DNA of 64,000 nucleotides. Origin: Alicyclobacillus sp. SO9. GTDB taxonomy: Bacteria > Bacillota > Bacilli > Alicyclobacillales > Alicyclobacillaceae. The stretch is taken from contig NZ_CP066339.1 of the NCBI RefSeq assembly GCF_016406125.1, positions 2,852,001 to 2,916,000 of the forward strand. Reading direction: 5' to 3'. The notes under the pieces are model-generated. The model searched no databases and had not been told where the DNA came from. It was given only the letters and a program-made list of their open reading frames with translations. The position numbers and the translations under genes were made by a program. This document shows positions 27,781-43,697 of this stretch, piece after piece. Position 1 is the first letter of the stretch, and every line of letters starts with the position of its first letter.

Positions 27781-29175
27781 TTATACAATGGCATTCTTGG
27801 CTTGAGTTTTCAAAGACTCCCCTAGGCGCACAGCAATGGTCCATACATCCCCTGCACCCATCGTCAAAACCAGATCTCCTGCAGACACGGTCTCACTCAA
27901 GTAGTTAAAAACATCATCCTTGGATTGCAGAAAACGCACATTCGGATTGGAATGGGCTTTAATCTCGCTCACTAAACGTTTGGCACTCACGCCTTCAATC
28001 CGTTTCTCTCCAGCGGGCGAGTAGATGTCCGTAATGATGACCTCGTCTGCCCCTTTGAACGCTCTGGCAAATGCGTCAAAAAGAAAAAAGGTTCGAGTGT
28101 ATCGCTGCGGTTGAAATACAGCAACCAGTCTTCGATTCGTGGCTTGGGCGGCCGCAATTGTTGCACTGATTTCCGTCGGATGGTGTGCATAATCATCGAT
28201 GACCAGGACATCGGCCGCCTCCGCTATGACTTGAAACCGCCGTTTTGCGCCGTGAAACTGAGCGAATGCCTCAGCTACCTGTTCAAATTTCAGACCAGAC
28301 TCCAACGATACCGCAATAGCTGCAAGGGCGTTCATGATATTATGTCGGCCTGGCAACGCCAATGTCAGTTCTCCCAAGTACGTGTCCTGATGATATACTC
28401 TGCACTGACTGCTCCTGTCTTGGAGTTTGATATCTTCAGCCCGATAGTCCGCATCCGTGTCTGAGATCCCAACTGTTTGTACACGGCAGGGCGCAAAGTG
28501 TCGCATCGCTCTCAGGTGCTGATCCTCGGCCGAACAGACCAGTAAGCCGTGGGTGGGGATTTGCTGAATAAACTGTTCGTATGCTTTCAACAGGTTTTCA
28601 AACTTACCGTCATAGTGCTCAAGGTGATCGGCTTCAACATTCGTTATTACTGCAATTTCGGGATGGTAGTGCAAGAAAGACCCGTCACTTTCGTCGGCTT
28701 CAGCTACTACATACTGGCCGCCGCCAGCTTTTGCATTATCCCCAATATTACTGACTACCCCGCCAATGACAAATGTCGGGTCAAGTCCACATTGTTCCAT
28801 CACATAGGACACCATCGACGTCGTTGTTGTTTTGCCGTGTGCTCCGGTCACTGCAACACCAACGCGATTTGACATTAAGCGCGCTAGCATTTCCGAGCGG
28901 TGGATAACTGGAATGTTGCGGGACTTGGCTTCCTGAATCTCTACGTTGTCTTGAGAGAGTGCCGTACTATACACAACCACATCTGCTCCGTCAATCTGGC
29001 TGGCCCGATGCCCTTTATAAACACGGGCACCTCGCTCTGTCAAACGCTCTGTGAGTTCCTGACTCGTTACATCGGAACCACTCACTTGAAACCCCATATC
29101 CAACATGACACGGGCGATAGCACTCATCCCATAACCGCCAATTCCGACAAAGTGTACATGCTCCGAGTCTTTCAC
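27781..29175 (-). CDS. murC: UDP-N-acetylmuramate--L-alanine ligase
   Basis: Adds L-alanine to UDP-MurNAc, the first peptide step in peptidoglycan synthesis. 464 residues, normal. N-terminal Rossmann motif HFVGIGGYGMSAIA at 8-21, ATP P-loop TGAHGKTTTT near 114-123, and the DDYAHHP motif near 327-333. GTG start with AAGGCGGTG upstream; 17 bases after folC, so probably co-transcribed with folC. murC beside folC is different from B. subtilis. Confidence 0.97.
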   Translation of the reverse strand: MKDSEHVHFVGIGGYGMSAIARVMLDMGFQVSGSDVTSQELTERLTERGARVYKGHRASQIDGADVVVYSTALSQDNVEIQEAKSRNIPVIHRSEMLARLMSNRVGVAVTGAHGKTTTTSMVSYVMEQCGLDPTFVIGGVVSNIGDNAKAGGGQYVVAEADESDGSFLHYHPEIAVITNVEADHLEHYDGKFENLLKAYEQFIQQIPTHGLLVCSAEDQHLRAMRHFAPCRVQTVGISDTDADYRAEDIKLQDRSSQCRVYHQDTYLGELTLALPGRHNIMNALAAIAVSLESGLKFEQVAEAFAQFHGAKRRFQVIAEAADVLVIDDYAHHPTEISATIAAAQATNRRLVAVFQPQRYTRTFFLFDAFARAFKGADEVIITDIYSPAGEKRIEGVSAKRLVSEIKAHSNPNVRFLQSKDDVFNYLSETVSAGDLVLTMGAGDVWTIAVRLGESLKTQAKNAIV

Positions 29176-29192
29176 GCGCTACACCGCCTTCT

Positions 29193-30506
29193 TCAAGAAT
29201 CCCCAATAATATCGTGTATAGTTTTCCGCGCCTCCGTGACCGTATACAGTGAACCCCAGCAACAGACTGGTCGTCTGCTCTGCAATGCTTTGAATACAGC
29301 GTGAGAAACGCTGGGTGCAGCAGCAACCCGAATCTTCCGTGACGCCTTCTTCACTTTCTCTTCGAGCGTGGTTACAGGCAAAGCACGCCCATTATCAGGC
29401 TCACAAACCACCACATCGTTAAGCCATGGGCGCATGACATCAATCATCGTACCAACTTCCTTATCTTCAAGGACCCCGATAATCATAAGCCATGGACTAT
29501 CTATTCGACAAAGCTGGCTAAAATCCTTGAGAGACTGTGACAATGCCCTTGCTGCAGCCTGGTTGTGAGCGCCATCTAGAACAACAGGTGCTACGCCATT
29601 CCACAAGACCTCGAAACGTCCCTCCCAACGCAACCCTTCGAACGACCTCCGAACTTCAGTCAGACGCAGAGGTGGCAGAATTCCTTTCTGTACCAACAGT
29701 TCATATGCAGCCAAAGCCAAGCCCGCATTGCTTTGCTGATACGTACCGAGAAGCGGCAGCGGCAAACGATAGAAGTCGTCAAAGAGACCCCGGTACGTAA
29801 TCGTTTGTACAGTTCCGTAGGTGTCACCAGTGACCGAAAACGCCGCCGGTGCATGAAACACGCTTACACCCTTTTGTTCCGCGATTTGCTGTACAACAGC
29901 TAGAGCAGCATCCGTTGCACCAGTTATGACGGGCACTGTCTCTTTGATAATGCCTGCTTTCTCCCTGGCGATATCTGGTATCGTGTGACCCAAAATACCC
30001 TGATGGTCCAGACTTACATTTGTAATCACACACAACACCGGGTGCACCACGTTAGTGGAATCCGATTTACCGCCGAGCCCAGCTTCCCATACGACAATGT
30101 CTGCACGTTTCTGAACAAAGTACAAAATCGACATAATCGTTAAAGCCTCAAATTCTGTGAGCGGGTCGTCTTTGCTAATAACCTGCTCGGCAGCCATAAC
30201 CGCTTGTGCAGCCTTGGCAAAATCCTCCGTCTCCACCAATCGTCCGTTAACCGAAAAGTCCGCGCGCAGCCCCTCGAGTCCAGGCGATGTAAAGGTACCG
30301 ACGCGAAGGGAATTCTGCAACAAAGAAGTTAAAATCTTGCTTACTGACCCCTTCCCGTTCGTTCCGGCTACATGTACAAAATTGAGCTCTCTTTCCGGAT
30401 TGTGAAGCGCCCGCAGAACCTCTCTCATACGTTTCAGCCCCGGCCTCACACCGAGCGAGGCACGGCTGTGCAACCATTTGAGAGCATCACTGTATCCTAC
30501 GGACAT
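29193..30506 (-). CDS. folC: Folylpolyglutamate / dihydrofolate synthase
   Basis: Mur-ligase-family enzyme that adds glutamate to folates. About 437 residues. P-loop VAGTNGKGSVS near 45-55, the omega-loop region FTSPGLE, and the LDGAHN motif near 316-321. The frame opens at 30536, but ATG 30506 has AAAGGAG 8 bases upstream and gives the family N-terminus. 83 bases after valS; in B. subtilis valS-folC-comC is the same order. Confidence 0.96.
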   Translation of the reverse strand: MSVGYSDALKWLHSRASLGVRPGLKRMREVLRALHNPERELNFVHVAGTNGKGSVSKILTSLLQNSLRVGTFTSPGLEGLRADFSVNGRLVETEDFAKAAQAVMAAEQVISKDDPLTEFEALTIMSILYFVQKRADIVVWEAGLGGKSDSTNVVHPVLCVITNVSLDHQGILGHTIPDIAREKAGIIKETVPVITGATDAALAVVQQIAEQKGVSVFHAPAAFSVTGDTYGTVQTITYRGLFDDFYRLPLPLLGTYQQSNAGLALAAYELLVQKGILPPLRLTEVRRSFEGLRWEGRFEVLWNGVAPVVLDGAHNQAAARALSQSLKDFSQLCRIDSPWLMIIGVLEDKEVGTMIDVMRPWLNDVVVCEPDNGRALPVTTLEEKVKKASRKIRVAAAPSVSHAVFKALQSRRPVCCWGSLYTVTEARKTIHDIIGDS

Positions 30507-30589
30507 AATGTATTCTCCTTTTCGTAAAATGGTCACTGGAGACCAATTGCCTTTTCACGTCAGTGCATCTGACAGGGTTTTGTGCCAAG

Positions 30590-33250
30590 TTACTGAAGGC
30601 TGTCAAAGCGTTCTATCACTGCCTGAAGTTTCGCCTCATAATCATCCAATTTTGTACGTTCGCCAGCGACCACAGAGGCCGGTGCCCTCTCTACAAACTT
30701 CGAATTTGCGAGTTTCTTTTTGACGCGGTCTACCTCCTGCTCCAATCTGCTCCTCTCTTTCTGCAGCCTCTCTCGCTCCACATCCAGGTCTACGAGACCG
30801 GCAATAGGCAGATAGATTTCTGCCCCAGTGACTACAGCCGTCATTGCTTTTTCGGGGACCTGTGCCTGCTCGTCAATCACCAGCTCAGACAACTGACAGA
30901 AGCGAACCAGATATGAGCGCACCGATTCGAACAAGTTCGAAGTCTCCTTGTCCTGCGTTTTGACGGTCATGGCCACCTGCCGGGAGGGAGCCACCTGAAG
31001 TTCTGCCCGTATATTTCTTACCGCGCGAATCGCGTCCTTGACAACTCCTATCTGACGCTGTGCAGCCTTATCGCTCCACTCTTCACTGTAGGCCGGCCAC
31101 TCCGACACAATTAGGGCCTTACCGGTACCCGGCAGTGCCTGCCAGATTTCCTCCGTGACAAAGGGAATAAACGGGTGCAGCATACGCAACAGACGGTCCA
31201 GAGTATAAACCAGCATTCCTTGCGTGCGGACTTTACGCTCTTCATCGTCACCGTACAGCGATAGCTTTGAGAACTCAATGTACCAGTCACAAAACTCATC
31301 CCAACTGAAGTCGTATAACGCTCGGCCGGCTTCTCCAAAATCGTATCTGTCCAAGTGTTCAGCAACCGACTTTGCGGTCTCGTTCAGCCGATGTAGTATC
31401 CAACGGTCCTCGACATCCAATTTTGCATCAGCCGGGTTAAATTCACCAAAGCCGTCGGTCGGTACGTTCATGAGCACAAACCGAGATGCGTTCCAAATCT
31501 TATTAATAAAGTTGCGGGCGCTTTCCACTCTTTCCCACTGAAAACGCTGGTCGTTCCCTGGAGTGGTCCCGTTAGACAGCATAAACCGCAGCGCGTCCGC
31601 GCCGTACTGCGAAATGACCTCAATGGGATCGACACCATTCCCTAAGCTCTTCGACATTTTTCTCCCATCCGCAGCACGAATCAATCCGTGCAGAACAACG
31701 TCTGCAAAGGGCATCTGTCCGGTAAACTCGACGCCCGTAAAGACCATCCGCGCAACCCAGAAGAAAATAATGTCGTAACCGGTCATCAACGCATTTGTCG
31801 GATAATAGCGCTTCAAGTCTGCTGTCTCTTGCGGCCAGCCCATCGTTGAAAAGGGCCATAAAGCGGATGAGAACCAGGTGTCAAGGACATCCACTTCTTG
31901 ATGGATATTCTTCGAATGACAGTGAGAGCACTCTGAGGGGTCTTCCATCGACACCGTGATATCATCGCAGTCATCACAATACCAAGCTGGAATGCGATGG
32001 CCCCACCACAATTGGCGAGAAATACACCAGTCCCGTACGTCCTCCAGCCAATGTACAAATACCTTTTCAAAACGCTCTGGGACAAACCTGAGCTGGTTAT
32101 CCTCGACACGTTGCAGCGTATTTTTGGCAAGTGTATCCATCCGCACAAACCACTGCAGAGACAAGAATGGTTCAACCACCGTATCACAGCGGCTGCAGTG
32201 GCCCACTGCGTGCTCAATTTCTTCCTCTTCCTGCAAGTATCCTTGAGCCTTTAAATCCTCCGCCACAAGCCGGCGCGCTTCTTCTCGGCTCAAGCCGGTG
32301 TATCCGCCAGCAAGACGATTCAGACGTCCGTCCGGGTCAATACACTGAGGCATCTCCAAACCGTGTCTTTGGCCGACCTCAAAATCGTTCGGATCATGTG
32401 CCGGGGTAATCTTTAAGCAACCCGTACCAAACTCTCTATCGACGTAGCCGTCAGCAATAACGGGAATTTCTTTATCTGTAAGCGGGAGTTTCAGCATTTT
32501 GCCAACCAGGTGCCGGTAACGGTCGTCATCTGGATGCACTGCTACTGCCACATCTGCAAACATCGTCTCAGGCCGGGTGGTCGCGATAACGACCCCCTCA
32601 CCGCTGCCGTCTGCCAAGTCGTAACGGACGTGATACAGTTTCGCCTGTACATCCACATGTTCCACTTCAATATCGGACAGTGCTGTAGCGCAACGCGGAC
32701 ACCAGTTGATGATACGCTTTCCTCTGTAAATGAGTCCTTTGTCATAGAGTGTCACAAACACTTTTTTAACGGCGTTGGAGAGACCCTCATCCATGGTAAA
32801 CCGTTCACGGGACCAGTCGCACGATGCACCAAGTTTGCGAACTTGATTGGTAATAATGTTGCCGTACTCCTCTTTCCACGCCCACACACGTCGAGTGAAC
32901 TCCTCGCGGCCTAAATCGTGTCGACTCACGCCTTCTTCTTGTTTGATACTTTTCTCTACGCGTGTCTGGGTAGCAATGCCGGCGTGATCCGTTCCAGGGA
33001 CCCACAGCACATCATAGCCTCGTAACCGCTTGTATCTTACAATGATATCCTGAAGTGTGTTGTCCCAAGCATGACCAATATGAAGTGATCCCGTTACGTT
33101 CGGCGGCGGCATAACGACCGAAAAAGCTTCATTTTCATTGGGGGTTGCAGGCTTGAAATAGCCCCCATTCTCCCAAAACTGATAGATTCGCTCCTCAACC
33201 GTTGTCGGGTCGTAAACTTTGGATAAAAGATTCTCATTTGTTTCAGTCAT
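30590..33250 (-). CDS. valS: Valyl-tRNA synthetase
   Basis: Class Ia synthetase charging tRNA-Val. About 886 residues. HIGH-type motif HIGH in SLHIGHAWDN near 58-61, editing domain (CP1) about 190-340, KMSKS loop near 530 (GRKMSKSLGN), anticodon-binding domain and a C-terminal coiled coil (about 820-886) as in bacterial ValRS. The frame opens at 33298; ATG 33250 with GGGAGAA 7 bases upstream is used. Controlled by the T-box leader just upstream. Confidence 0.98.
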   Translation of the reverse strand: MTETNENLLSKVYDPTTVEERIYQFWENGGYFKPATPNENEAFSVVMPPPNVTGSLHIGHAWDNTLQDIIVRYKRLRGYDVLWVPGTDHAGIATQTRVEKSIKQEEGVSRHDLGREEFTRRVWAWKEEYGNIITNQVRKLGASCDWSRERFTMDEGLSNAVKKVFVTLYDKGLIYRGKRIINWCPRCATALSDIEVEHVDVQAKLYHVRYDLADGSGEGVVIATTRPETMFADVAVAVHPDDDRYRHLVGKMLKLPLTDKEIPVIADGYVDREFGTGCLKITPAHDPNDFEVGQRHGLEMPQCIDPDGRLNRLAGGYTGLSREEARRLVAEDLKAQGYLQEEEEIEHAVGHCSRCDTVVEPFLSLQWFVRMDTLAKNTLQRVEDNQLRFVPERFEKVFVHWLEDVRDWCISRQLWWGHRIPAWYCDDCDDITVSMEDPSECSHCHSKNIHQEVDVLDTWFSSALWPFSTMGWPQETADLKRYYPTNALMTGYDIIFFWVARMVFTGVEFTGQMPFADVVLHGLIRAADGRKMSKSLGNGVDPIEVISQYGADALRFMLSNGTTPGNDQRFQWERVESARNFINKIWNASRFVLMNVPTDGFGEFNPADAKLDVEDRWILHRLNETAKSVAEHLDRYDFGEAGRALYDFSWDEFCDWYIEFSKLSLYGDDEERKVRTQGMLVYTLDRLLRMLHPFIPFVTEEIWQALPGTGKALIVSEWPAYSEEWSDKAAQRQIGVVKDAIRAVRNIRAELQVAPSRQVAMTVKTQDKETSNLFESVRSYLVRFCQLSELVIDEQAQVPEKAMTAVVTGAEIYLPIAGLVDLDVERERLQKERSRLEQEVDRVKKKLANSKFVERAPASVVAGERTKLDDYEAKLQAVIERFDSLQ

Positions 33251-33369
33251 CGCAAATTCTCCCCATCTCTGCACAATATATGGAAACTCGCACCGCAATT
33301 TAGTGCGGTCGAGCGCACCGTCGCCACTTGGCGAACGCTGTAGTCACGCACATTTTCAAGTCCAGCAAA

Positions 33370-33632
33370 CGTAAAAATACTTCCGTCCCATCAGGACGGA
33401 AGTATTTCCGCGGTACCACCTGACTTCCTGAGCAAGCAGGCTCTGGCCGCTCGCTCAGGCTGCTCAGCCATTGTTAACGAAATGACCCGCCTGCTATAAT
33501 TATCCGGGCGACGTTCGGATACACCTTGCAGGCAATTTCCAGCCTAGATTGCCCTCTCTACTCCATTGTACCGGATGTACAAGGCCTGTATCCTACTCCT
33601 CCGCGGCAACAGTAAATCTTCAGTTCGAGCTT
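33370..33632 (-). promoter_or_regulatory. T-box leader of valS, GUC specifier
   Basis: Minus strand. The 5' part holds Stem I with AGTA opposite GAACGTC, where GUC would be the valine specifier, above the pairing GGATACA / TGTATCC. The T-box sequence CAGGTGGTACCGCGG covers 33406-33420, and a strong terminator hairpin (ATACTTCCGTCC / GGGACGGAAGTAT followed by TTTT) lies at 33370-33406. Uncharged tRNA-Val should stabilise the antiterminator and allow valS, probably with folC and murC, to be read. The 441 bases between valS and the next gene hold only this leader and its promoter. Confidence 0.9.
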
Positions 33633-33639
33633 ACACAGT

Positions 33640-33669
33640 ATAGTACTCATGTAGCCAATGCCCTGTCAA
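33640..33669 (-). promoter_or_regulatory. Sigma-A promoter of the valS T-box transcript
   Basis: Minus strand TTGACA (33664-33669), 18-base spacer, TACTAT (33640-33645). Perfect -35 hexamer; the start would lie near 33633, just before Stem I of the T-box. Confidence 0.75.
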
Positions 33670-33691
33670 GCTGGAGCGACAAAAGCAACGC

Positions 33692-34198
33692 CTAGCGTTT
33701 CTTGCGTTTCTTGTTCTTTGCAGAATGATGACGCCGCTGGGGCGCAGATGTGCTGCTGCTCGCAGCTTTCTGACTTCTCTTCGTGTCCAACTCTGCACGT
33801 TTTCTCTGTGACCAATTTGTCAGTCTCAGATATAAATAAGCCATTATAATTCCCACTACCAGCGTCAGTCCGTCTGTCTGTAGAATCCCCATCATTCCGA
33901 CGGGACGCGGCGGTTTGCCTATCATCGCGTTCTGCTCGTGCAGCGCCATTTGTAGTATGAAGCCAATAATAACAGTCGCAACGACCCCAACGATGGCATT
34001 GGCAAGTTTACGTTCTTCGATTCGCGGAATCACCCAGTAGCTTACCACCATGACCCCAAGCATCAAACTTGAAATAATCTGGGTTTTCACTGTGATAACA
34101 GCGATGAATTCCAAGGCTGAGATAACCAAGACTGTGAGTCCAACAAGGCGCCATGCCCATCCATTCCAAATTCCTTTTCCTGTCGTATACTCTCTCAA
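33692..34198 (-). CDS. Four-helix membrane protein with basic tail, unknown function
   Basis: 168 residues: membrane helices at about 17-37, 42-58, 65-86 and 101-125, then a cytoplasmic tail of about 40 residues ending in a run of Lys, Arg and His. TTG start at 34198 with GGAGGA 6 bases upstream. I do not recognise a family. It sits alone between valS and the plus-strand small gene, in the spore-coat cluster, but no promoter type could be assigned. Confidence 0.75.
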   Translation of the reverse strand: MREYTTGKGIWNGWAWRLVGLTVLVISALEFIAVITVKTQIISSLMLGVMVVSYWVIPRIEERKLANAIVGVVATVIIGFILQMALHEQNAMIGKPPRPVGMMGILQTDGLTLVVGIIMAYLYLRLTNWSQRKRAELDTKRSQKAASSSTSAPQRRHHSAKNKKRKKR

Positions 34199-34326
34199 AA
34201 GACGTCCTCCATCTATCCGTTAGTCACTTCTATCTTACCAAACTCCAACAATACTTGACCAGAAGGGTTGCATCAGGCATATCCGTGCATATGTATAACA
34301 ATAAGACAATTGGAGGGGGCGCCGAC

Positions 34327-34488
34327 ATGAGTTTTTTCTACGCAATGGCGAGATTTGTAAAGCTCTTACTAGCCGTAGCCATTTTTCTTTTATTCCTCCG
34401 CGCCCTGTTTTGGCCAAGTGCATTAGACCTGTTCGTCTTATTTATCCTGTTTATTGTCTTTGCCACGATGTTCATCGGAGGACCATAG
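34327..34488 (+). CDS. Small membrane protein, 53 residues, unknown
   Basis: Hydrophobic throughout: helices at about 9-26 and 32-50 with a short loop (WPSALD). ATG at 34327 follows GGAGGGGGC, a strong ribosome-binding site. A possible TTGACC-N17-CATATC promoter precedes it. The frame starting at 34153 is longer but lacks initiation signals. Divergent from the four-helix membrane protein gene. No family known to me. Confidence 0.6.
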   Translation: MSFFYAMARFVKLLLAVAIFLLFLRALFWPSALDLFVLFILFIVFATMFIGGP

Positions 34489-34614
34489 TCGACGTGTTCG
34501 AGCCTCACCCCATAACTAATAGACCCGCAGACTGGACGAGGCCAGTACGCGGGCCCTATTTTCAGATCCTTGTCACCTTCCTTTTCACAGCTTCAAATTC
34601 GCTTGTTACAAAGT

Positions 34615-35961
34615 CTATTCGCCAGGATGTTGAGCATCTCCCCACAAACGCGCAGGCCTTGATGTATCCGCAACGTCCTCGCTTGAAGACGTTCGTCTAG
34701 TCGGTTTGGGTCGGTACTTTCGAACACGAATCTGCGTCATCTCCCGTTGCGGCTTTCTACGCCTTGTCTGCTTTCGGGACTCCTGTCTGTTTGCTTCAAC
34801 CTTTGCATCCGCTCGTTGCGTTTCGAGCTTAGCTACTTGGGCTGCAACCTCTGCACCGTCGTCTTGCCGCGTTCGCAAATCTGCATGCACGACTTCCTCA
34901 TCGTTCACTGATAAATCATGGTTTTGGGCTAAAACAGAGCTTTCGGCCTGACTGAGCTGTTCAAGCCCCTTACTTTTCGTCTCGAGCAGTTCGAGAGAGT
35001 GTTCAAGCACATCCGAAAACAGTCCTTCATCTTTGAAATCCTGCGACTGATAAATCTCCACTAGTTGCAAAATGTCTAAGGGCGCTCTCAGCATGGCAGC
35101 GATATAGACACCCCAGTCATCTGCTCCGCTGACTTCACGAAGGTAGGTCTCCACCAGTTCCTTCAACAGCCCAGCATCCCAGGCGTGTTCGTTCATATGG
35201 CTGTTCATAAAATAAACCAAGTCTGACAAAGGGGCGCCAGGACCCACACTGTCGTAGTCAACAATGGTGTAGAACTCTCCATCATAGCGAATGTGCGCCG
35301 CGGAAAAGTTGCCGTGACAGACCCACCCCATTGCACACATTTGCGTTTCGTGCGTTGCAAAATCAAGCGCAGTCAGCCTATCCATGGCTTCCTGCGTACG
35401 AAGCAGCACATCTTGAGCAAAACCGAGAAAGAGACGCTCAAACTCCGTCCTTTCTGTCTTTTCTCGCACGTCTTTCCAAAATGATGCGGACTTGTCGTAC
35501 AAGCGTTGGAGCTTTTCCTGGAATCCTTGTGCAGGTCTGACACTGTCTCCTGTGCCAAGAGCCCCCATGGTGTTCCGTTGCCACAGCGCAAGTTCTTCAA
35601 CGGCCCGCGCCATGTGTTCTTTGTGACGGACTTCCAATGCACGCCCGCCGATCCAATCAGTCATATAGTAGAACCGGTTCCCGTCTCGTACGTAGGGGTC
35701 TCCATACCGATTTCGGATAAACCGGGGAACTCTGGGAACACCCTGTCCGGCTAGGTATTCCGTCACGGTAAAGGCATTTTGTACGTTCGCCAGCCTTTCC
35801 GAAACCGCCTTAACAGCTCTGGCTCCGAACATCGTCTGTAGTTTCACTGTGTCTCCCACCCGACGGATTCGCACCGGAACGCAGTCATATTCTTCGACAA
35901 TATCCGCCGGGATCCCATAAGAGTGAAGCATGCGTAGTACACTTGACTGAACGTCCCTCAC
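34615..35961 (-). CDS. CotS-family spore-coat kinase-like protein (YsxE-like)
   Basis: 448 residues. Aminoglycoside-phosphotransferase/CotS fold: N-lobe to about 105 (FYYMTDWIGGRAL hinge), catalytic loop at 216-225 and metal site VDYDS at 234-238. The catalytic loop reads HGN with a His at the later Asn position, so the usual catalytic Asp is replaced by Asn218. A basic, low-complexity C-terminal extension (about 340-448) is rich in Arg, Lys and Gln. Third gene after the SpoVID-like gene, the position of ysxE in B. subtilis. Spore-coat or spore-cortex role is inferred. Confidence 0.82.
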   Translation of the reverse strand: MRDVQSSVLRMLHSYGIPADIVEEYDCVPVRIRRVGDTVKLQTMFGARAVKAVSERLANVQNAFTVTEYLAGQGVPRVPRFIRNRYGDPYVRDGNRFYYMTDWIGGRALEVRHKEHMARAVEELALWQRNTMGALGTGDSVRPAQGFQEKLQRLYDKSASFWKDVREKTERTEFERLFLGFAQDVLLRTQEAMDRLTALDFATHETQMCAMGWVCHGNFSAAHIRYDGEFYTIVDYDSVGPGAPLSDLVYFMNSHMNEHAWDAGLLKELVETYLREVSGADDWGVYIAAMLRAPLDILQLVEIYQSQDFKDEGLFSDVLEHSLELLETKSKGLEQLSQAESSVLAQNHDLSVNDEEVVHADLRTRQDDGAEVAAQVAKLETQRADAKVEANRQESRKQTRRRKPQREMTQIRVRKYRPKPTRRTSSSEDVADTSRPARLWGDAQHPGE

Positions 35962-35973
35962 TGAGTTCCCTCC

Positions 35974-36960
35974 TCAGCCTCGTGTTTTATCAAGAAGCCT
36001 GTTGCTCACTGATTTCTGTTGTTCCATTCGGCGCTTCCATGCTGAGTCACTTGAAAGATTTACACGACCTGTTCGAACACCGTGAAGCATCCGCAGGCCT
36101 TGATGAGGAAAGGCGACAAACGCCAGTACCATGGTTTTTTCATCCTCATCAATGGGTTGATGGAGCGCATAAGCGTCCATTGCTTCCATGACGCCGTCAA
36201 CATGTCCAGACTCAGACACATCTAGACACAAGGAAGCTAAATCATACAAAGGAGTATCACGAACTGGTGCGGAAACCTGGTTGACTGCCATCCGTCCGTC
36301 TGGCAAGCGAAGGAGACTGGACAGTCTGTAACCGTTCCATGCAATCCCACCGGGTTTACTTGCGGACCATTCGTTGTAGCCTTGCTTTTCAAGTAATTCG
36401 ACGGCACGGCCGCTCACGTCGATCCAACTGTCAACCAAGTCGCTCCAAGCTTTTGTATCTTGTCGACGAACCCTATCTCTGGCAAAAGTCCTCTCGGTGA
36501 CAAACAACTCCTGCGCCGACTTTAAACTCTCTATCCACGACCCTAATCGGTTGTGCATGACATTGCGGTAAGGCTGGAGTTCGGCTCGCCCTTCTGCCAA
36601 CGCAGTGTGGAGAAGACCCAAGTTTTCACCAGCCTGCAAAACATCGTATGGTGTGACCTGCAGAGGTCTCCCCTCAAAAACATTGCTCACATACATGACT
36701 CTTCCTTCATTCACCCTCCGCGCCCGCTCTTGGTAGACATTCTTCAAGTGGCGCTGCACGAGCCGTTGCCCCTGGTGTGCCAAAAGGTCTCCCGCAGTTC
36801 TCTTTACGGCGGCCTCGTTGACGGAGGCAAGCACAGCTTCAAATCTGCCCTGCCTCCCCTTTAGTTGGACTCGTTTTGAATCTACTGGAACGATGTTTGT
36901 GACAGCGAGCTCGTACGTATCCACGTGCGGACCAAGGGTTTGCCACAACTCCTTTGCCAC
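35974..36960 (-). CDS. CotS-family pseudokinase paralogue
   Basis: 328 residues, distant relative of the gene that follows it. The helical C-lobe pattern is kept, including the TPLYDLASL segment at 236-244, but the catalytic loop position reads GIAWNGYRL (205-213) without His-Gly-Asp, and the metal-binding Asp is replaced by Asn227. It should lack phosphotransfer activity. Lies 45 bases after the SpoVID-like gene and 12 bases before the YsxE-like gene, so part of one operon. Alternative: a diverged structural coat protein. Confidence 0.7.
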   Translation of the reverse strand: MAKELWQTLGPHVDTYELAVTNIVPVDSKRVQLKGRQGRFEAVLASVNEAAVKRTAGDLLAHQGQRLVQRHLKNVYQERARRVNEGRVMYVSNVFEGRPLQVTPYDVLQAGENLGLLHTALAEGRAELQPYRNVMHNRLGSWIESLKSAQELFVTERTFARDRVRRQDTKAWSDLVDSWIDVSGRAVELLEKQGYNEWSASKPGGIAWNGYRLSSLLRLPDGRMAVNQVSAPVRDTPLYDLASLCLDVSESGHVDGVMEAMDAYALHQPIDEDEKTMVLAFVAFPHQGLRMLHGVRTGRVNLSSDSAWKRRMEQQKSVSNRLLDKTRG

Positions 36961-37005
36961 GTTGCAGAACCCCCTTCTGTCTGACAGACAACCTTCCCGT
37001 TTTGC

Positions 37006-38502
37006 TTACGCTTCTTGTTGCTGTTCAGATTCCGGAACTGCCAGTGACTGACCAGGATGGACCACAGTATCCCGGGTCAAGTGATTCATCTGTACTAACT
37101 CATCAGCAGAACAATTCAAGCGCACAGAGAGGTCTTCCAGTGATTCCTCGTCCTCCACTATCACGAAACGAAGAGTATACTGTGTATCCGGCCCGTCAAA
37201 GTCCACAAACGACCACATATCTGACGACATGGACACAGATTCCGCCCTCGTCTCGGCTTCGTCGTCAGACTCTCTCAGAACTACTTCGGGAGTCTCCCCA
37301 TCGCCAGCTTCTTCGCTGACAGCATTGCGATGACTTGCCTGGTGCTCGTTCTGTGTCTCTTCAGGTTGTACTGCGCCGACATCGGGAACCTGGTGCTCAA
37401 AATCGAATTCAACGACATTGTCGTTGTCAGGCTGCTGCTGCAGTTCGTCCAGCGAAGGCTCTGCTACATGGCGATGCTCCTGAGAGAATGCTTTGTAAAC
37501 AGCAGAACTTTCGCCTGGATGGCCCTCCTCAGAATCCGAGAGGTATCCCTCCCTCTGCTGGCTTGCCTCTGTCTGCGGTGAACGTTCCGCTCCAAACAAT
37601 CTGTCGAGTCTGTGCAACTCGGAGCTGGAGAAATTCTCCGACTCATCCCCTTCTGGAGACGGCCTGCCAACTTGCGTCTCTGCCATCTCCTGACCGCCTC
37701 GTGCTTCACTGACTCTGTCCGCGTCTCCCACGTCGGATGTGTGCCTCATATCAGGGTTCTCATCATGCTCTGCATCCGTATAGGCTGGCGTAACATCCAT
37801 ATCGTCCTCTGACCCTCTGGTAAGCTGCAGTTCGTCTGCTGCGTCTGTCTGCCATTGCGGAGTCTCATAGGGGGAGTCATATGGCTTCCGTTCATCCTCA
37901 GGATGCGACATCCCAGGATTTGCGCCGCTAGGATTTGAGGCGTCGAGAGGAGGATCATTCACTTCGTAAGCATCATCGTAGAATTCAGGTCCCTTGCTGG
38001 AGGCTTGGTGGAACAACAGGTCTCCTTCCTCTTGAGCTCCGCATTCAAAATGGTATCCCTTGTCTCCGTTTAAACCGAGTATGGATAAGTCACCGATGAT
38101 TCGAATCCACCCTGCGCCAATGACCTCCAACTGCCACGAGGAAATTCGACTGTTGACATTGACAATACCGCGAGGTTGTGCCTTTACAGGAACTCTGAGT
38201 ATAAATGGGAGTCTATGATGGAGATGATTGACACCATTGCTGGCCATCCCAAACGACAATGCGTCAGACGCCTCCTCTAGGTTCTCGCTCCCAGTGTCGC
38301 TCTCCGCACTTGATGGATTTTTTGTATACCCGGCAAAAACGATGGCTCCTTCCAGTACATAGGCATCTCCGACGCGGTCAAACAAGGTTACCTCTGTTGC
38401 TACGGTAGCATCCTCGACAATATCTCCGTCGACTACTGAATCTATAAATACTTCTTGATCGATCTCGAGTTGAATTTGTGGACTACGGTCCGAATCTCCC
38501 AA
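37006..38502 (-). CDS. spoVID: SpoVID-like spore-coat encasement protein with C-terminal LysM
   Basis: About 498 residues in three parts: an N-terminal beta-rich domain (about 1-165, ending FILRVPVKAQPRG and following residues), a long acidic low-complexity middle full of Glu, Asp, Gln and Ser, and a LysM domain at about 443-491 (DLSVRLNCSADEL). SpoVID, which guides coat layers onto the spore, has this plan. TTG at 38502 is chosen because AAAGGAGGG lies 7 bases upstream; the frame continues to 38628 without initiation signals. First gene of the coat operon, behind a sigma-E-like promoter. Confidence 0.85.
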   Translation of the reverse strand: MGDSDRSPQIQLEIDQEVFIDSVVDGDIVEDATVATEVTLFDRVGDAYVLEGAIVFAGYTKNPSSAESDTGSENLEEASDALSFGMASNGVNHLHHRLPFILRVPVKAQPRGIVNVNSRISSWQLEVIGAGWIRIIGDLSILGLNGDKGYHFECGAQEEGDLLFHQASSKGPEFYDDAYEVNDPPLDASNPSGANPGMSHPEDERKPYDSPYETPQWQTDAADELQLTRGSEDDMDVTPAYTDAEHDENPDMRHTSDVGDADRVSEARGGQEMAETQVGRPSPEGDESENFSSSELHRLDRLFGAERSPQTEASQQREGYLSDSEEGHPGESSAVYKAFSQEHRHVAEPSLDELQQQPDNDNVVEFDFEHQVPDVGAVQPEETQNEHQASHRNAVSEEAGDGETPEVVLRESDDEAETRAESVSMSSDMWSFVDFDGPDTQYTLRFVIVEDEESLEDLSVRLNCSADELVQMNHLTRDTVVHPGQSLAVPESEQQQEA

Positions 38503-38545
38503 GGCTGTTCCCTCCTTTTGCTGAATTAGACAGGATTCCACCATA

Positions 38546-38572
38546 AATTTATGCCCTGTTGAACTCTGATAT
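38546..38572 (-). promoter_or_regulatory. Sigma-E-like promoter of the spoVID operon
   Basis: Minus strand: ATA (38570-38572, within GACATATCAG), 16-base spacer, CATAAATT (38546-38553). This matches the sigma-E pattern ATA-N16-CATACANT at all but one fixed base. It lies 44 bases before the TTG start, downstream of the hem terminator. Confidence 0.65.
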
Positions 38573-38578
38573 GTCCGC

Positions 38579-38614
38579 ACAATAAAAGCCCGTGTGCAGA
38601 CACAACTGCGCACG
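38579..38614 (-). terminator. Intrinsic terminator of the hem operon
   Basis: Minus strand: CCCGTGCGCAG / CTGCACACGGG with a 6-base loop and one mismatch, followed by CTTTTATTGT. It lies 54 bases after the hemL stop and separates the hem genes from the spore-coat operon. Confidence 0.85.
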
Positions 38615-38667
38615 GGCCCATAAACCATCGACAGTATTTTAAATCAGGAGGTTGCGGTACACCTGTT

Positions 38668-39957
38668 TTACAACTGCTGAAAAGCCGCTTTCATTGCTGC
38701 TTGCGTGTATTCTAGTTCCCGAGTTGTATGAACTGCAGAGACAAAACCTGATTCCAACTGCGAGGGAGCTATGGACACACCTTCTGTCAACATTAACTGA
38801 AAATACTGTCCGAAGCGTTCCTTGTCTGACTCCATCGCTGAATCAAAATCAGTAACAGGTCCGCTGTGAAAGAACAAGCCAAACATTGCACCCATTGCAT
38901 GTCCATAGACAGGAATTCCTTTTTCACGGCCCAATGAAACAAAGGTGTCCACCAAGGCTTGCCCATAGTCCTGCATTTTCTGATAAACGCCTTGTTGGTC
39001 GGCATCCTTTAACATCTGCAGCGACTTCAATCCCGCTGCCATCGCCAAGGGATTTCCAGACAGCGTACCCGCTTGATAGACTGGGCCCGCCGGCGCCACT
39101 TGTTCCATAATATCTCGACGACCTCCGTACGCACCAACCGGTAATCCTGCTCCAATTACCTTTCCAAGAGTGGTTAAGTCGGGCTTCACGTTGAAGCGTG
39201 CACCAGCACCTCCTAAAGATACGCGAAAACCGGTCATGACTTCGTCAAAAATCAACAGACTCCCGTAGGCCTCCGTAAGCGTTCTGATTCCCTCAAGATA
39301 GCCTTCGTTTGGCAAAACACACCCCATATTGCCAGCTACCGGTTCGACAATCACGGCGGCAATGTCTGATCCATATTTTTGGAACAGACCGTTCAGTGCT
39401 TCCAAATTATTGTATGGAACAGTCAAAGTAGCATTGGCCGTACCACCTGGAACACCTGGGCTGTCAGGCAACGCAAACGTGGCAACACCTGAGCCAGCCT
39501 TGACCAACAGGCTGTCAGCGTGACCATGATAACATCCCTCAAATTTCACAATATAGGGGCGATTGGTATAAGCTCTAGCCAACCGGAGTGCGCTCATAGT
39601 GGCTTCGGTTCCGCTGTTGACCATTCGTACGACTTCGATGGAAGGAACAAGTGAAACAACCATTTCAGCCATTTGCGTTTCCAGCTCAGTCGGCATTCCA
39701 AAACTTGTTCCTTTAGCCGTAACTCTCGTTACTTCCGACACAATCTCCGGGTGAGCATGCCCCCACATCAACGGACCCCACGACAACAGGTAATCGATGT
39801 ACCGATTACCATCAATATCGTAGACGTAGGGCCCTTCGCCGTGGTCCGCAAAAACTGGTGTTCCGCCAACGGCACGGTATGCTCGAACAGGACTGTTTAC
39901 CCCGCCCGGCATCACTTTTTGTGCAGCTTCATATGCTTTCGCAGAACGCTCTCGCAC
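38668..39957 (-). CDS. hemL: Glutamate-1-semialdehyde 2,1-aminomutase
   Basis: Converts glutamate-1-semialdehyde to 5-aminolevulinate, the last step of the C5 route. 429 residues, normal. Pyridoxal-phosphate Lys lies in [18 protein letters not shown] near 265; VNSGTEATMSALRLAR and LIFDEVMTGFR are also typical. GTG start with GAGGAG 10 bases upstream. Last gene of hemAXCDBL. Confidence 0.98.
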   Translation of the reverse strand: MRERSAKAYEAAQKVMPGGVNSPVRAYRAVGGTPVFADHGEGPYVYDIDGNRYIDYLLSWGPLMWGHAHPEIVSEVTRVTAKGTSFGMPTELETQMAEMVVSLVPSIEVVRMVNSGTEATMSALRLARAYTNRPYIVKFEGCYHGHADSLLVKAGSGVATFALPDSPGVPGGTANATLTVPYNNLEALNGLFQKYGSDIAAVIVEPVAGNMGCVLPNEGYLEGIRTLTEAYGSLLIFDEVMTGFRVSLGGAGARFNVKPDLTTLGKVIGAGLPVGAYGGRRDIMEQVAPAGPVYQAGTLSGNPLAMAAGLKSLQMLKDADQQGVYQKMQDYGQALVDTFVSLGREKGIPVYGHAMGAMFGLFFHSGPVTDFDSAMESDKERFGQYFQLMLTEGVSIAPSQLESGFVSAVHTTRELEYTQAAMKAAFQQL

Positions 39958-40031
39958 AGATCTTCAACTCCTCTGCATAACTCTATTGCCTCAACGTCGT
40001 TTGCGGATTCTGCCTCAGGAAATCCCCTTTC

Positions 40032-41006
40032 CTATAGGTCTTTACGCCACACAGCCGCCTCTTTGGCATGATAGGTAAGAATAAAATCTGCACCCGCTCT
40101 TTTGAACGACGTCAGTATTTCCGGAATCATTGCCCTTTCATCAATCCACCCCTTGGCTGCGGCCGCCTTTACCATGCTGTATTCAGCGCTGACATTGTAA
40201 GTGGCAAGCGGAACATTGAACTGCTCACGAATCGTGCGCGTCACATCAAGATAGGAGAGTGCCGGCTTTGTCATGAGCATGTCCGCGCCCTCAAGTATAT
40301 CCGACTGGGCCTCGCGAACCGCTTCCCGAACATTAGGCGGATCCATTTGATAGGTACGCCGGTCACCAAACGAGGGGGCGGAGTGCGCAGCGTCGCGAAA
40401 CGGACCGTAAAATGCAGAAGCATATTTAACCGCATACGACAAAATTACTACATTGTGAAACTCCTCTTCGTCAAGTATTCTCCGAATCGCCTGCACCCGC
40501 CCGTCCATCATATCAGAGGGAGCTACGACATCCGCACCTGCCCGTGCGTGAGACAAGGCGGTTTGAGCTATGTAATTGAGACTGGGGTCATTGACAATCT
40601 CTCCGCCTCGTACAACACCGCAGTGACCTGCCGGATTATATTGGCATAGGCAGACGTCTGTCATGACCAGCAACTCAGGATTTTCCTCCTTTGCCGCGCG
40701 AATAGCCTGCTGTACAATACCGTTTTCCGCGTACGCGCCGGAACTCTCATCGTCCTTTTCCTGGGGAATCCCAAACAGAATGATACCAGGAATAGATAGC
40801 TCACTAATCTGTCCAATCTCGCGACGGAAATCGTCCAAACCATGATGGTAGATTCCAGGCATGGCATTTATCTCTTCGGACCCGCTTAAACCCTCCTGCA
40901 CGAACATCGGGTAAATCAAGTCGCCCACATTCCACTCATGCTCTCGAATCAGGTTCCGCATGGCCTGACTGCTTCTTAGACGGCGATGACGTTGAAACCC
41001 TCCCAT
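40032..41006 (-). CDS. hemB: Delta-aminolevulinic acid dehydratase (porphobilinogen synthase)
   Basis: Condenses two 5-aminolevulinate molecules to porphobilinogen. 324 residues. Two Schiff-base lysines: the one in YAVKYASAFYGPFR near 194-200 and the one in MLMTKPALSYLD near 248. The cysteine cluster C118, C120, and a following Cys in VCLCQYNPAGHCG indicates a zinc-type enzyme. ATG with AGGAGG upstream. Confidence 0.98.
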   Translation of the reverse strand: MGGFQRHRRLRSSQAMRNLIREHEWNVGDLIYPMFVQEGLSGSEEINAMPGIYHHGLDDFRREIGQISELSIPGIILFGIPQEKDDESSGAYAENGIVQQAIRAAKEENPELLVMTDVCLCQYNPAGHCGVVRGGEIVNDPSLNYIAQTALSHARAGADVVAPSDMMDGRVQAIRRILDEEEFHNVVILSYAVKYASAFYGPFRDAAHSAPSFGDRRTYQMDPPNVREAVREAQSDILEGADMLMTKPALSYLDVTRTIREQFNVPLATYNVSAEYSMVKAAAAKGWIDERAMIPEILTSFKRAGADFILTYHAKEAAVWRKDL

Positions 41007-41050
41007 TTTGCATTTCCTCCTTCTATACCTCTCTGAGTTTCGTTCTGGAT

Positions 41051-41881
41051 TTAAAACTTGTCCTGTCGATCCTTCACCCGTTTCACTTTTGGCCGCATAA
41101 CATCTACCACAGCATCAATGACACTTTCAGAACTGGGGTGTTCAGCAACCGCAGCAACTTCCAGCTCCAGTTTTTCGCAAGCTTGCTTTGTGGTCTCACC
41201 CACTACCACAAATTGCACATTGCGCTGTTTAAAGTGCGCTGGACCCACTTGCTTCAGCAGACTCTTCACGGCCGACGGACTGAAGAGCAGGATAGCAATC
41301 CGTTCTGCTTTGAATAAGTCCTGCCACCTTGCTCGTGGAACATGGCATTCGACGGTATCATAACAAATGCACTCATCCACTGCATAACCTGCATCACGGA
41401 GGTTTTCTATGAATTGAGTGTCCGATAAATTGCCCCGCGGTACAAGAAATCGCGTGTTAGGTTTCCCTGCAAAGGATTCAATCATGTGATGAGCTAGTTC
41501 TACACTGCTGCGCACACCGTGGTAAACCTCGGCAGCAATCCCGTGATTTGCTGCAACCTCTTTTGTTTTCTCAGAAATAGCAATCCAAGTAATACTACTT
41601 TCCGGAAGCTGCCGGCCCACTCGCTTTGCAGCAGCATCCAAGGAACGAACCGTGTTTGCAGAAGTGAGAACCACAACGTCATAATCTGATAGATTTTGAA
41701 TCATCTGGTCTACACGTGCATTGTCACGATAATGAATTTCAATTACCGGAGCAATGTGAGGCACACCGCCCAAGTCACAGATTCTCTCAATCATTCCCTC
41801 AGCTTGTTGTGAAGGACGTGTAATGATAACGTCAACGCCCTTCAGCGGCAAACTCACACCGTTTTTCTCTCCGGATTTCAT
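41051..41881 (-). CDS. hemD: Uroporphyrinogen-III synthase
   Basis: Closes hydroxymethylbilane with inversion of ring D. 276 residues with the two alternating HUP-like domains and typical weak conservation; the ITRPSQQA start, VVLTSANTVR and LLFSPSAVKSLL segments fit. ATG overlaps the hemC stop by 4 bases (ATGA). Identified by these segments plus place in the operon. Confidence 0.94.
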   Translation of the reverse strand: MKSGEKNGVSLPLKGVDVIITRPSQQAEGMIERICDLGGVPHIAPVIEIHYRDNARVDQMIQNLSDYDVVVLTSANTVRSLDAAAKRVGRQLPESSITWIAISEKTKEVAANHGIAAEVYHGVRSSVELAHHMIESFAGKPNTRFLVPRGNLSDTQFIENLRDAGYAVDECICYDTVECHVPRARWQDLFKAERIAILLFSPSAVKSLLKQVGPAHFKQRNVQFVVVGETTKQACEKLELEVAAVAEHPSSESVIDAVVDVMRPKVKRVKDRQDKF

Positions 41882-42804
41882 GAATCGCTCACCCTCACTG
41901 CGTTCAGGATTTCCTCTGCCCCCTGGTCTCGCAATCTGGCTGCAACCTTTTGACCAAGTTCCGAAGCGTTCCTGCCGCGGTCTTCTGCCCGGATAACTGT
42001 AGTTCCGTCCTCCGCCGCGACCAGGCCTTTTAAATGAATGTCTCCATCTTTGTCAACGGTCGCAAATCCCGCTAAAGGAACTTGGCAACTGCCGTCTAAG
42101 GCTGCTAGCAAGCTGCGTTCTGCCAAAGCCGCAGTCTGGGCAGCTTCGTCCGTCAAACGAGCCAAGAGCTCCAACACGTAATCGTCGTCTTTACGACATT
42201 CGATTCCGAGAATCCCCTGTCCCACCGCCGGAAGACAATCGTCTGGTTCCAAATACTGCGTAATGCGTTTCGACCAGCCCATACGAGCAAGTCCAGAGGC
42301 TGCAAGAAGAATGGCATCGAAATCTCCACGCTCCATTTTTGCGATGCGTGTATCAATATTTCCGCGGATGGACTCGACGCGAATATCAGGTCTTAACGCC
42401 CTTATCTGCGCCATTCTACGTAAGCTTGACGTACCTACTACGGCCCCTTGAGGAAGCTTTTGCCAAGGTACTTCGTCTCGGGATAAGAATGCGTCTCTAG
42501 GGTCTTCTCGTTCCGGCACGCCTCCAAGGGCGAGTCCGTCCGCCAACCGGGCAGGCATGTCTTTCATGCTGTGCACAGCCAAGTCAGCTTCGTTGCTCAA
42601 CATTAGCTGCTCAATTTCTGAAACGAATAAGCCTTTTCCGCCCACCTTAGACAATGTGACATTTAGAATCGTATCTCCTCTGGTTGTCACAGGCACAATC
42701 ACAAACTGCGTGTCCGGTGCGAGCTGTTGCATTTTCGAAATGACCCATTTTGTTTGAGTCATCGCCAAGGCGCTTTTTCGTGATGCCACGCGAATCGTTC
42801 TCAT
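41878..42804 (-). CDS. hemC: Hydroxymethylbilane synthase (porphobilinogen deaminase)
   Basis: Polymerises four porphobilinogens on a dipyrromethane cofactor. About 308 residues. Cofactor Cys in LDGSCQVPLAG near 238-248, catalytic Asp in HSMKDMPA near 80-87, and GTSSLRR. The frame opens at 42888, but ATG 42804 (MRTIRVASRKSALA) has GAGAGGA 6 bases upstream and is the family start. Confidence 0.97.
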   Translation of the reverse strand: MRTIRVASRKSALAMTQTKWVISKMQQLAPDTQFVIVPVTTRGDTILNVTLSKVGGKGLFVSEIEQLMLSNEADLAVHSMKDMPARLADGLALGGVPEREDPRDAFLSRDEVPWQKLPQGAVVGTSSLRRMAQIRALRPDIRVESIRGNIDTRIAKMERGDFDAILLAASGLARMGWSKRITQYLEPDDCLPAVGQGILGIECRKDDDYVLELLARLTDEAAQTAALAERSLLAALDGSCQVPLAGFATVDKDGDIHLKGLVAAEDGTTVIRAEDRGRNASELGQKVAARLRDQGAEEILNAVRVSDS

Positions 42805-42884
42805 AACTAGTCCTCTCAATCCTTCATTCTTAAAAGCTTGTCCTCTAGCAAGCAGTTGCCTTATATTACAGTGCTCACGAGTGG

Positions 42885-43697
42885 TCAATTACCATGATGA
42901 AACACGGAGATATTGCTTACAATTAAGAAATTAACGACAACCCCTATAAAGCATATCAAACTATACCCCGCTAAGCGACGTCCGCCCCATCCCGACCGCA
43001 ACCGCAACATCAAGTAAACACCGTACATAATCCATAAAACTACAGTGGCAATGGGCTTAGGATCCCAAAATTGAAACTTCCCTATACTAATATTCGCCCA
43101 AATCATACCTAGTAGCATGGATATAAGCAACAGCGGCAGGCCAACAACAATTGACCCAAAACTATAGCGATCTAGGACATCGAGGGCAGGCAAGCGAAAA
43201 TACCACGCACTCCACTGCTTCTTCCTCAGCATGCGCTCTTGAATCAAATACATGACGGAAAACAAGAAAGCAAATGCAAAAGCAGCATAACTCAGTGCAG
43301 CCGTTGCGATGTGCAAAACCAGCAGGTCTCCCTGTCGATGGGGATAAATCACGTCGGTTCGACCCACAATATCAAAGACAACCATAAAAAAAACGAGAGC
43401 GTTTGCAAAGAACAGAAGCATTCCAACTTGAAAAAAGGTTTGCACGACGACAGCAACGAGCAAGATAATCCATGACAATAGAAGCAACAAATCAAACCGG
43501 TTGTATACCGGAGGTGTTCCAAACCGCTCCAAACGAAGGAGCAGGTACGCCGTCAACAGCCCGAAAACAGCAAATAACAAAATAAGCGCCGTTCGATTAA
43601 TCGTCCGGCGCGGTTGTATAGAGTCCATAAAGAATAAAACCAAACTCGCAGCGTACAGGATAATCATACCATCATACAGAAGTCGACTCCAAACCAT
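42885..43697 (-). CDS. hemX: HemX, CcsA-like membrane protein of the hem operon
   Basis: 270 residues with about eight membrane helices and the CcsA/CcmC-like core (the segment GMIWANISIGKFQFWDPKP resembles the tryptophan-rich haem-handling motif). In B. subtilis HemX limits the amount of glutamyl-tRNA reductase HemA. Located between hemA and hemC as there; starts with ATG 11 bases after hemA. The role is inferred from that. Confidence 0.93.
   Translation of the reverse strand: MVWSRLLYDGMIILYAASLVLFFMDSIQPRRTINRTALILLFAVFGLLTAYLLLRLERFGTPPVYNRFDLLLLLSWIILLVAVVVQTFFQVGMLLFFANALVFFMVVFDIVGRTDVIYPHRQGDLLVLHIATAALSYAAFAFAFLFSVMYLIQERMLRKKQWSAWYFRLPALDVLDRYSFGSIVVGLPLLLISMLLGMIWANISIGKFQFWDPKPIATVVLWIMYGVYLMLRLRSGWGGRRLAGYSLICFIGVVVNFLIVSNISVFHHGN

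Follow-up and report, generated by a model that had tools for sequence, protein, structure and literature searches.

Gene order and candidate promoter at the spoVID locus

In the window, by which we mean the whole 64,000-nucleotide stretch of the Alicyclobacillus sp. SO9 genome analyzed here, the open reading frames give the minus-strand order hemL, spoVID, P2, P1, valS; P1 and valS are separated by a small frame (33692-34198). P2 and P1 are our labels for two genes encoding kinase-fold proteins. The genes and the candidate promoter are as follows.

34615..35961, minus strand: P1, a YsxE-clade kinase-fold pseudokinase of 448 residues (open reading frame, NCBIfam, predicted model, tree)
35974..36960, minus strand: P2, a kinase-fold protein of 328 residues whose catalytic loop is erased (open reading frame, NCBIfam, predicted model, tree)
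37006..38502, minus strand: SpoVID-like LysM gene (NCBIfam spore_VI_D, Pfam LysM)
38546..38574, minus strand: sigma-E-like promoter, ACATATC-N14-CATAAATT, upstream of the spoVID-like gene (pattern match, recurrence)

The gaps measure 45 bp between SpoVID and P2 and 12 bp between P2 and P1, and a purine-rich ribosome-binding site can be read by eye at the GTG of each of the two genes. Gaps of this size bear out the original prediction that the pair follows the SpoVID-like gene without room for a promoter. The upstream gene matched NCBIfam spore_VI_D (3.3e-14; 53 bits, cut-off 170) and Pfam LysM (1.4e-05). Both downstream proteins matched the NCBIfam CotS model TIGR02906 significantly, P1 at 1.4e-28 (99.8 bits) and P2 at 8.3e-13 (47.9 bits), yet below its curated cut-off of 172.7. 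P1 also matched the YsxE model TIGR02904 at 4.3e-17; because its 62.3 bits do not reach the curated cut-off of 263.55, we place it in the YsxE clade without calling it an NCBI equivalog. Pfam APH matched P1, and P2 matched neither a Pfam family nor an NCBIfam equivalog. The link of P1 and P2 to sporulation is given by context, namely the upstream SpoVID-like gene and the sigma-E-like box.

The longest spoVID open reading frame starts at 38628. A TTG at 38502, after AAAGGAGG, is the likely start, preferred for its good ribosome-binding site and for the position of the promoter, with the sigma-E-like box lying about 43 bases ahead. The box was called with what we take to be the sigma-E consensus. 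The pattern ATATY-N13-15-CATAHAHT matched once in the window against 0.06 matches expected from shuffles. A looser promoter score returned 26 sites in the window, one of them equally good and inside hemL; since that score is unspecific, the strength of the promoter call lies in recurrence over 29 named loci, which belong to Alicyclobacillaceae (two are unclassified Bacillota) and came from a SpoVID scan, so that SpoVID is present in each by construction. Of the 28 loci showing both hemL and spoVID, 20 had a CATA-type site after hemL and 8 had none; the spacing was 14 every time, though 13 to 15 was allowed. From this recurrence we infer that 38546..38574 may act as the promoter of spoVID, P2, and P1.

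At 33330-33640 on the minus strand, before valS, a GGTGGTACCGCGG stretch, which we take to be a T-box motif, stands with a terminator-like stem, as in T-box leaders; Rfam gave nothing at gathering score there or elsewhere in 29000-43000.

Active sites, predicted folds, and selective constraint

The argument for loss of catalysis begins with two short stretches.

35308..35316, minus strand: P1 residues 216-218 (His-Gly-Asn), at the HxD motif position (alignment to solved relatives)
36322..36348, minus strand: P2 residues 205-213 (GIAWNGYRL), the ex-catalytic loop, strongly conserved in Alicyclobacillaceae (alignment)

The original prediction had described both catalytic loops as broken, and its residues and numbering are correct: H216-G217-N218 replaces HxD in P1, with metal-site D235 and D237 retained, and P2 has lost the loop, reading GIAWNGYRL at 205-213, and carries N227 at the metal position. 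In alignments to 4pdy (CHLD) and 2q83/YtaA (CHQD), the catalytic Asp falls on P1 N218, the loop Asn (N244 of YtaA) on H223, and the first metal Asp on D235. The catalytic-loop Asn is thus also gone from P1, a change that the original prediction overlooked. No other Asp fills the catalytic position of P1, a possibility that had been raised with the prediction and that both alignments rule out. In YtaA numbering, the full D239/N244/D257 set is therefore absent from the window pair: P1 reads N, H, D at these positions, and P2 has no loop and N227. With D235 and D237 remaining, metal or nucleotide binding by P1 is possible.

This pattern extended to relatives. Survey alignments used two intact paralogues as reference and YtaA numbering, and families are given by code (f1, f2, and so on), f1 being taken to be Alicyclobacillaceae. 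The loop alignment over many homologues that the original prediction proposed found the complete D239, N244, and D257 set in 0 of 101 P1/YsxE proteins and 0 of 61 P2 proteins. Among the P1 rows, D239 was kept in 5 (two of f9, three of f1) and lost in 96, N244 was kept in 53, and D257 in 52 (lost in 49); in 44 rows D239 alone was missing, with N244 and D257 present. H237 was retained in 100 rows and the fold-holding D269 in 97. For P2, D239 aligned in 13, N244 in 17, and D257 in 8 rows, in a loop alignment made uncertain by how little of the loop remains; D269 was retained in 57 of 61. The P2 counts leave aside G128, whose frame is interrupted by a stop, G072 and G174, which the wider profile alone picked up, and G037, G049, and G051 of f2. 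A relative with HxD and DxD intact, which the original prediction had named as evidence against it, does occur once among the 101 P1 proteins: G007 retains HGD and DxD (D239, D257), but its loop Asn is lost. Judged by these residues, this P1 might be active. Since the loss recurs across the class, it is not special to the SO9 genome and goes beyond chance.

Inactive members of the CotS family are already in print, and the losses in P1 and P2 agree with that account. Scheeff et al. (2009) predicted five inactive classes of bacterial spore kinase (BSK) that have lost D239 and proposed a common non-enzymatic function for them; in the available text, the YsxE pocket is very poorly conserved and probably ligand-free (PMC2860764). 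That text does not name YsxE as one of the five classes, but YsxE is probably among them.

Structure prediction, also proposed originally, was carried out on P1 and P2 as single proteins from eight-row alignments and gave the whole YtaA/CotI kinase fold for both. The P1 model had a mean pLDDT of 77.7 (about 90 over most of the domain, below 50 at residues 342-373 and 391-448), and the P2 model had a mean of 90.7. The top two Foldseek matches of both models were 4pdy and 2q83, and the fold matches covered both lobes. By VIA-align, P1 matched 4pdy with Z 30.8 (rmsd 2.9, 324 aligned) and 2q83 with Z 28.7 (3.4, 326), and P2 matched 2q83 with Z 27.4 (3.8, 319) and 4pdy with Z 27.2 (3.1, 312), a range of Z 27 to 31. 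A search of solved structures with an eight-protein P2 profile returned one match, a small tautomerase at E 0.17, which we took as chance.

P1 additionally carries a C-terminal extension with a recurring motif.

34618..34941, minus strand: P1 C-terminal tail, residues 341-448 (pLDDT below 50 at 342-373 and 391-448)
34636..34647, minus strand: P1 residues 439-442 (Leu-Trp-Gly-Asp), end-of-tail motif (recurrence in P1 tails)

The model suggests that the tail is probably mostly disordered. Of 30 P1 tails of f1, f2, f29, f36, and f37, 26 have a Leu-Trp-type end motif, where shuffling gives an expectation of 1.5; none of the 71 P1 tails of other families has it. The pattern was picked after inspection of the tails, and the rows are related to each other. 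The tail is poorly conserved overall, and the end motif reaches the 58th percentile only. A tie between the motif and the presence of P2 was rejected: by the wider profile, G037 and G049 (f2) have P2, and their P1 proteins are without the motif.

Both genes evolve under purifying selection. Across eight close pairs for each gene, dN/dS was 0.08 to 0.28; in one of the eight pairs HemL gave 0.056 and SpoVID 0.284. The frames compared were mostly stop-to-stop, and some include extra residues before the true start, which touches these values. Constraint also reached the former catalytic regions. For its length, the P2 ex-loop (AWNGYRL) stood at the 100th percentile of conservation in Alicyclobacillaceae (8 rows) and at the 89th in f1 and f2 together (16 rows), and the P1 catalytic-loop stretch (21 rows) stood at the 98th percentile despite the missing Asp.

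Phylogeny and distribution of P1 and P2

In a 65-row tree, P2 formed one side of a branch with support of 100/99 (99 in a quick tree). When YutH rows and other paralogues were added in a 67-row tree, P2 remained separate (100/97), as did YutH (100/99; seven rows, six over the NCBIfam cut-off and one below). The CotS and CotI labels in this tree were assigned by us to TIGR02906 matches. P2 thus belongs by tree to neither YutH nor another known BSK class, and a transposed YutH is excluded as its origin. Recent tandem copying of P1 was likewise rejected, since P2 is a single clade, with the reservation that fast branches could still group degenerate proteins. In the 67-row tree, P1 and the YsxE proteins over the NCBIfam cut-off formed one clade (97/90); in the 65-row tree with two outgroup rows, the P1 rows did not (10% of bootstrap trees). 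At E ≤ 1, 13 of the 16 P2 proteins of f1 and f2 matched the CotS model, 3 YsxE, and 3 CotI; CotS was also the best match, under its cut-off, of four P2 proteins from other families. Our search of open papers recognized no paper dedicated to the P2-type gene. P2 appears to be an old sister group that has not been named, although the supplementary tables of PMC2860764 may list P2-like proteins. Judged by its residues, the pair is pseudokinase/pseudokinase, and P2 is the part worth following.

Several known proteins resemble the pair. P1 is like YsxE in lying downstream of spoVID and upstream of valS (with P2 inserted), in its clade, and in retaining HG with the catalytic Asp lost; it differs in its score (62 bits against a cut-off of 264), in its tail of about 100 residues ending in the Leu-Trp motif, and in being preceded by P2. 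YutH is a spore coat protein of the same family and is called catalytically inactive in the available text of PMC2860764, but its seven rows form a clade of their own, apart from P2. CotI/YtaA (2q83) and A. acidocaldarius 4pdy share the predicted fold over the whole domain but keep the catalytic loop and metal Asp.

Searches with the window proteins over 61 genomes, its own included, matched 48 genomes for P1 (many matches being other paralogues) and 18 for P2. A YsxE profile at E 1e-10 matched 110 of 200 genomes of the class; best-hit neighborhoods were taken for 80 of these, and the remaining 30 comprised 15 f1 genomes and 15 others with mostly low scores. At 79 of the 80 loci, all chosen by the YsxE profile alone, the neighborhood showed a SpoVID-like gene. 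A second BSK frame was present at 45 loci and absent at 35, and each coded family was uniform in this respect (11 with, 15 without). In 13 coded families, f1 and f2 included, P2 separates spoVID from the YsxE-type gene, and one of the 13 (f41) rests on a single weak match of 39.6 bits; 15 coded families have a P1-type gene and no P2 in the neighborhood. In 18 genomes of these 15 families, a profile built from f1 and f2 P2 proteins, perhaps too narrow to reach a distant P2, detected no clear P2 elsewhere: at E 0.001 it matched 3 genomes, two through P1 itself and one (G096) through a 281-residue frame.

Of the 29 named loci, 19 carry neither gene and 6 carry both; one locus, that of A. fastidiosus, has only P1, another has P2 where its contig ends, and 2 were unscored, with valS out of view. 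SpoVID does not, therefore, need P1 or P2, and the pair is dispensable at those 19 loci. A 25-row HemL-ValS tree requires at least four changes in the presence of P2 and five in that of P1. About three of three independent pairs agreed in joint loss, a number too small for significance, and a single deletion can remove both genes.

P2 is split into two frames in L148 (G128) and L024 (G051), by true loss or sequencing error. A mannose-1-phosphate guanylyltransferase-like gene stands between P2 and P1 at eight loci (L156-L161, L164, and L167; seven of f37, one of f29), an insertion that recalls the published link of cotS and ytaA with nucleotide-sugar genes. Through the named loci (L168-L196), many Alicyclobacillus species are seen to carry a SpoVID-like gene between hemL and valS. 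A 2012 survey, in its available text, reported spoVID missing from A. acidocaldarius and Kyrpidia tusciae (PMC3533761); both species fall outside the 29 named loci, and the genes seen here qualify the published view of a family without spoVID.

Possible roles of the pair in the spore coat

We favor, with a probability of about 0.62, the reading that P1 and P2 are non-catalytic coat adaptors, anciently diverged CotS-family pseudokinases made together with SpoVID. The original prediction had offered structural scaffolds or a kinase/pseudokinase complex. Active-site loss, predicted fold, and purifying selection support the non-catalytic, scaffold-like half of this; a kinase/pseudokinase complex of P1 and P2 themselves is not supported, with a full active site in none of the 101 P1 or 61 P2 proteins. 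Assembly by the SpoVID-like LysM protein, also part of that prediction, draws its support from operon linkage and the shared sigma-E-like promoter, and would have to be absent at the 19 named loci that have SpoVID and neither gene. As for the two proteins working as a pair, the recurrent order in 13 coded families is consistent with it, and the 15 families without P2 and the lone P1 of A. fastidiosus speak against it; in f37 and f29, moreover, another gene interrupts the order. Under the adaptor reading, a sigma-E-type promoter would drive P1 and P2 along with SpoVID in the mother cell; the two proteins would no longer transfer phosphate and would serve as folded adaptors in the inner coat or the basement layer. 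P1 (the YsxE side) and P2 may use conserved surfaces, including the re-used loop region of P2, to bind one another or a further coat protein, and the P1 tail, which ends in the Leu-Trp motif, could be a docking peptide. Published observations bear on such roles: CotSA requires CotS for assembly into the spore (cited in the available text of PMC2860764), and a B. anthracis ysxE insertion gave normal-looking spores with a strong sporulation defect, according to the accessible part of PMC12700454. In the view of Scheeff et al., as far as the available text shows, the family supplies coat enhancements and not core structure (PMC2860764). This view and the conserved P1 loop slightly lowered our confidence in the adaptor reading.

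The conserved loop stretch (98th percentile) would fit with P1 binding a nucleotide or other ligand as a sensor, or performing an atypical transfer via Asp235/Asp237, with P2 as its regulator. We consider this doubtful. The metal-site Asp is present in the window P1, but D239 and N244 are not; D257 is found in 52 of 101 P1 proteins, and in 44 only D239 is missing, but its absence from the other 49 indicates that the group does not preserve the site. The guanylyltransferase-like gene at eight loci would suit a sugar-related ligand, and the available text of PMC2860764 allows that BSKs may bind nucleotide-sugar-type reactants, but the same text holds the YsxE binding site to be probably ligand-free.

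Equally speculative, and unlikely on balance, is a bolder form of the adaptor reading, in which P2 is an ancient undescribed third component of the spoVID operon. P2 and the YsxE-type protein would then pair as two pseudokinases into an adaptor serving coat or sugar-modification enzymes, and single-gene lineages would have lost P2. If this form were true, the standard model would have missed P2 because the single-gene lineages, whose arrangement is the one published for B. subtilis, had lost it.

We regard as improbable that the two genes are decaying relics surviving by chance in some lineages and on their way out. Their absence from 19 of 29 named loci, the repeated change in P2 presence (at least four times on the HemL-ValS tree), the free variation of active-site positions, and the broken P2 of two genomes would all fit decay, but dN/dS is well below 1 for both genes, and P2, with a single origin and long branches, persists in 13 coded families (one by a weak match). 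Very improbable, finally, is a kinase/pseudokinase complex in which the third, intact BSK of the SO9 genome does the catalysis and is activated by P1 or P2: this paralogue (C1:825863-826753, L052) has HLD, N, and DxD intact and exceeds the CotS cut-off, but it lies about 2 Mb off on the same contig, and nothing in the analysis ties it to P1 or P2. In its own right, the paralogue is a candidate active spore kinase, with a loop motif like that of 4pdy (a motif comparison, outside the trees).

Spore pseudokinases occur widely as coat proteins of no known mechanism. The presence of a second, separately evolving pseudokinase between spoVID and the YsxE-type gene in many families makes a non-catalytic job of the fold testable, as single-gene and double-gene lineages can be compared and P1 and P2 can be co-expressed.

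A conserved Trp stretch (MWSFVDF) was also seen in the window SpoVID, just before LysM, at about residues 471-490 of the 540-residue open reading frame. According to the available text of PMC6282716, SpoIVA is bound in B. subtilis by region A of SpoVID; the Trp stretch sits where region A lies, and the P1 tail, whose motif may be related to it, likewise ends in Leu-Trp.
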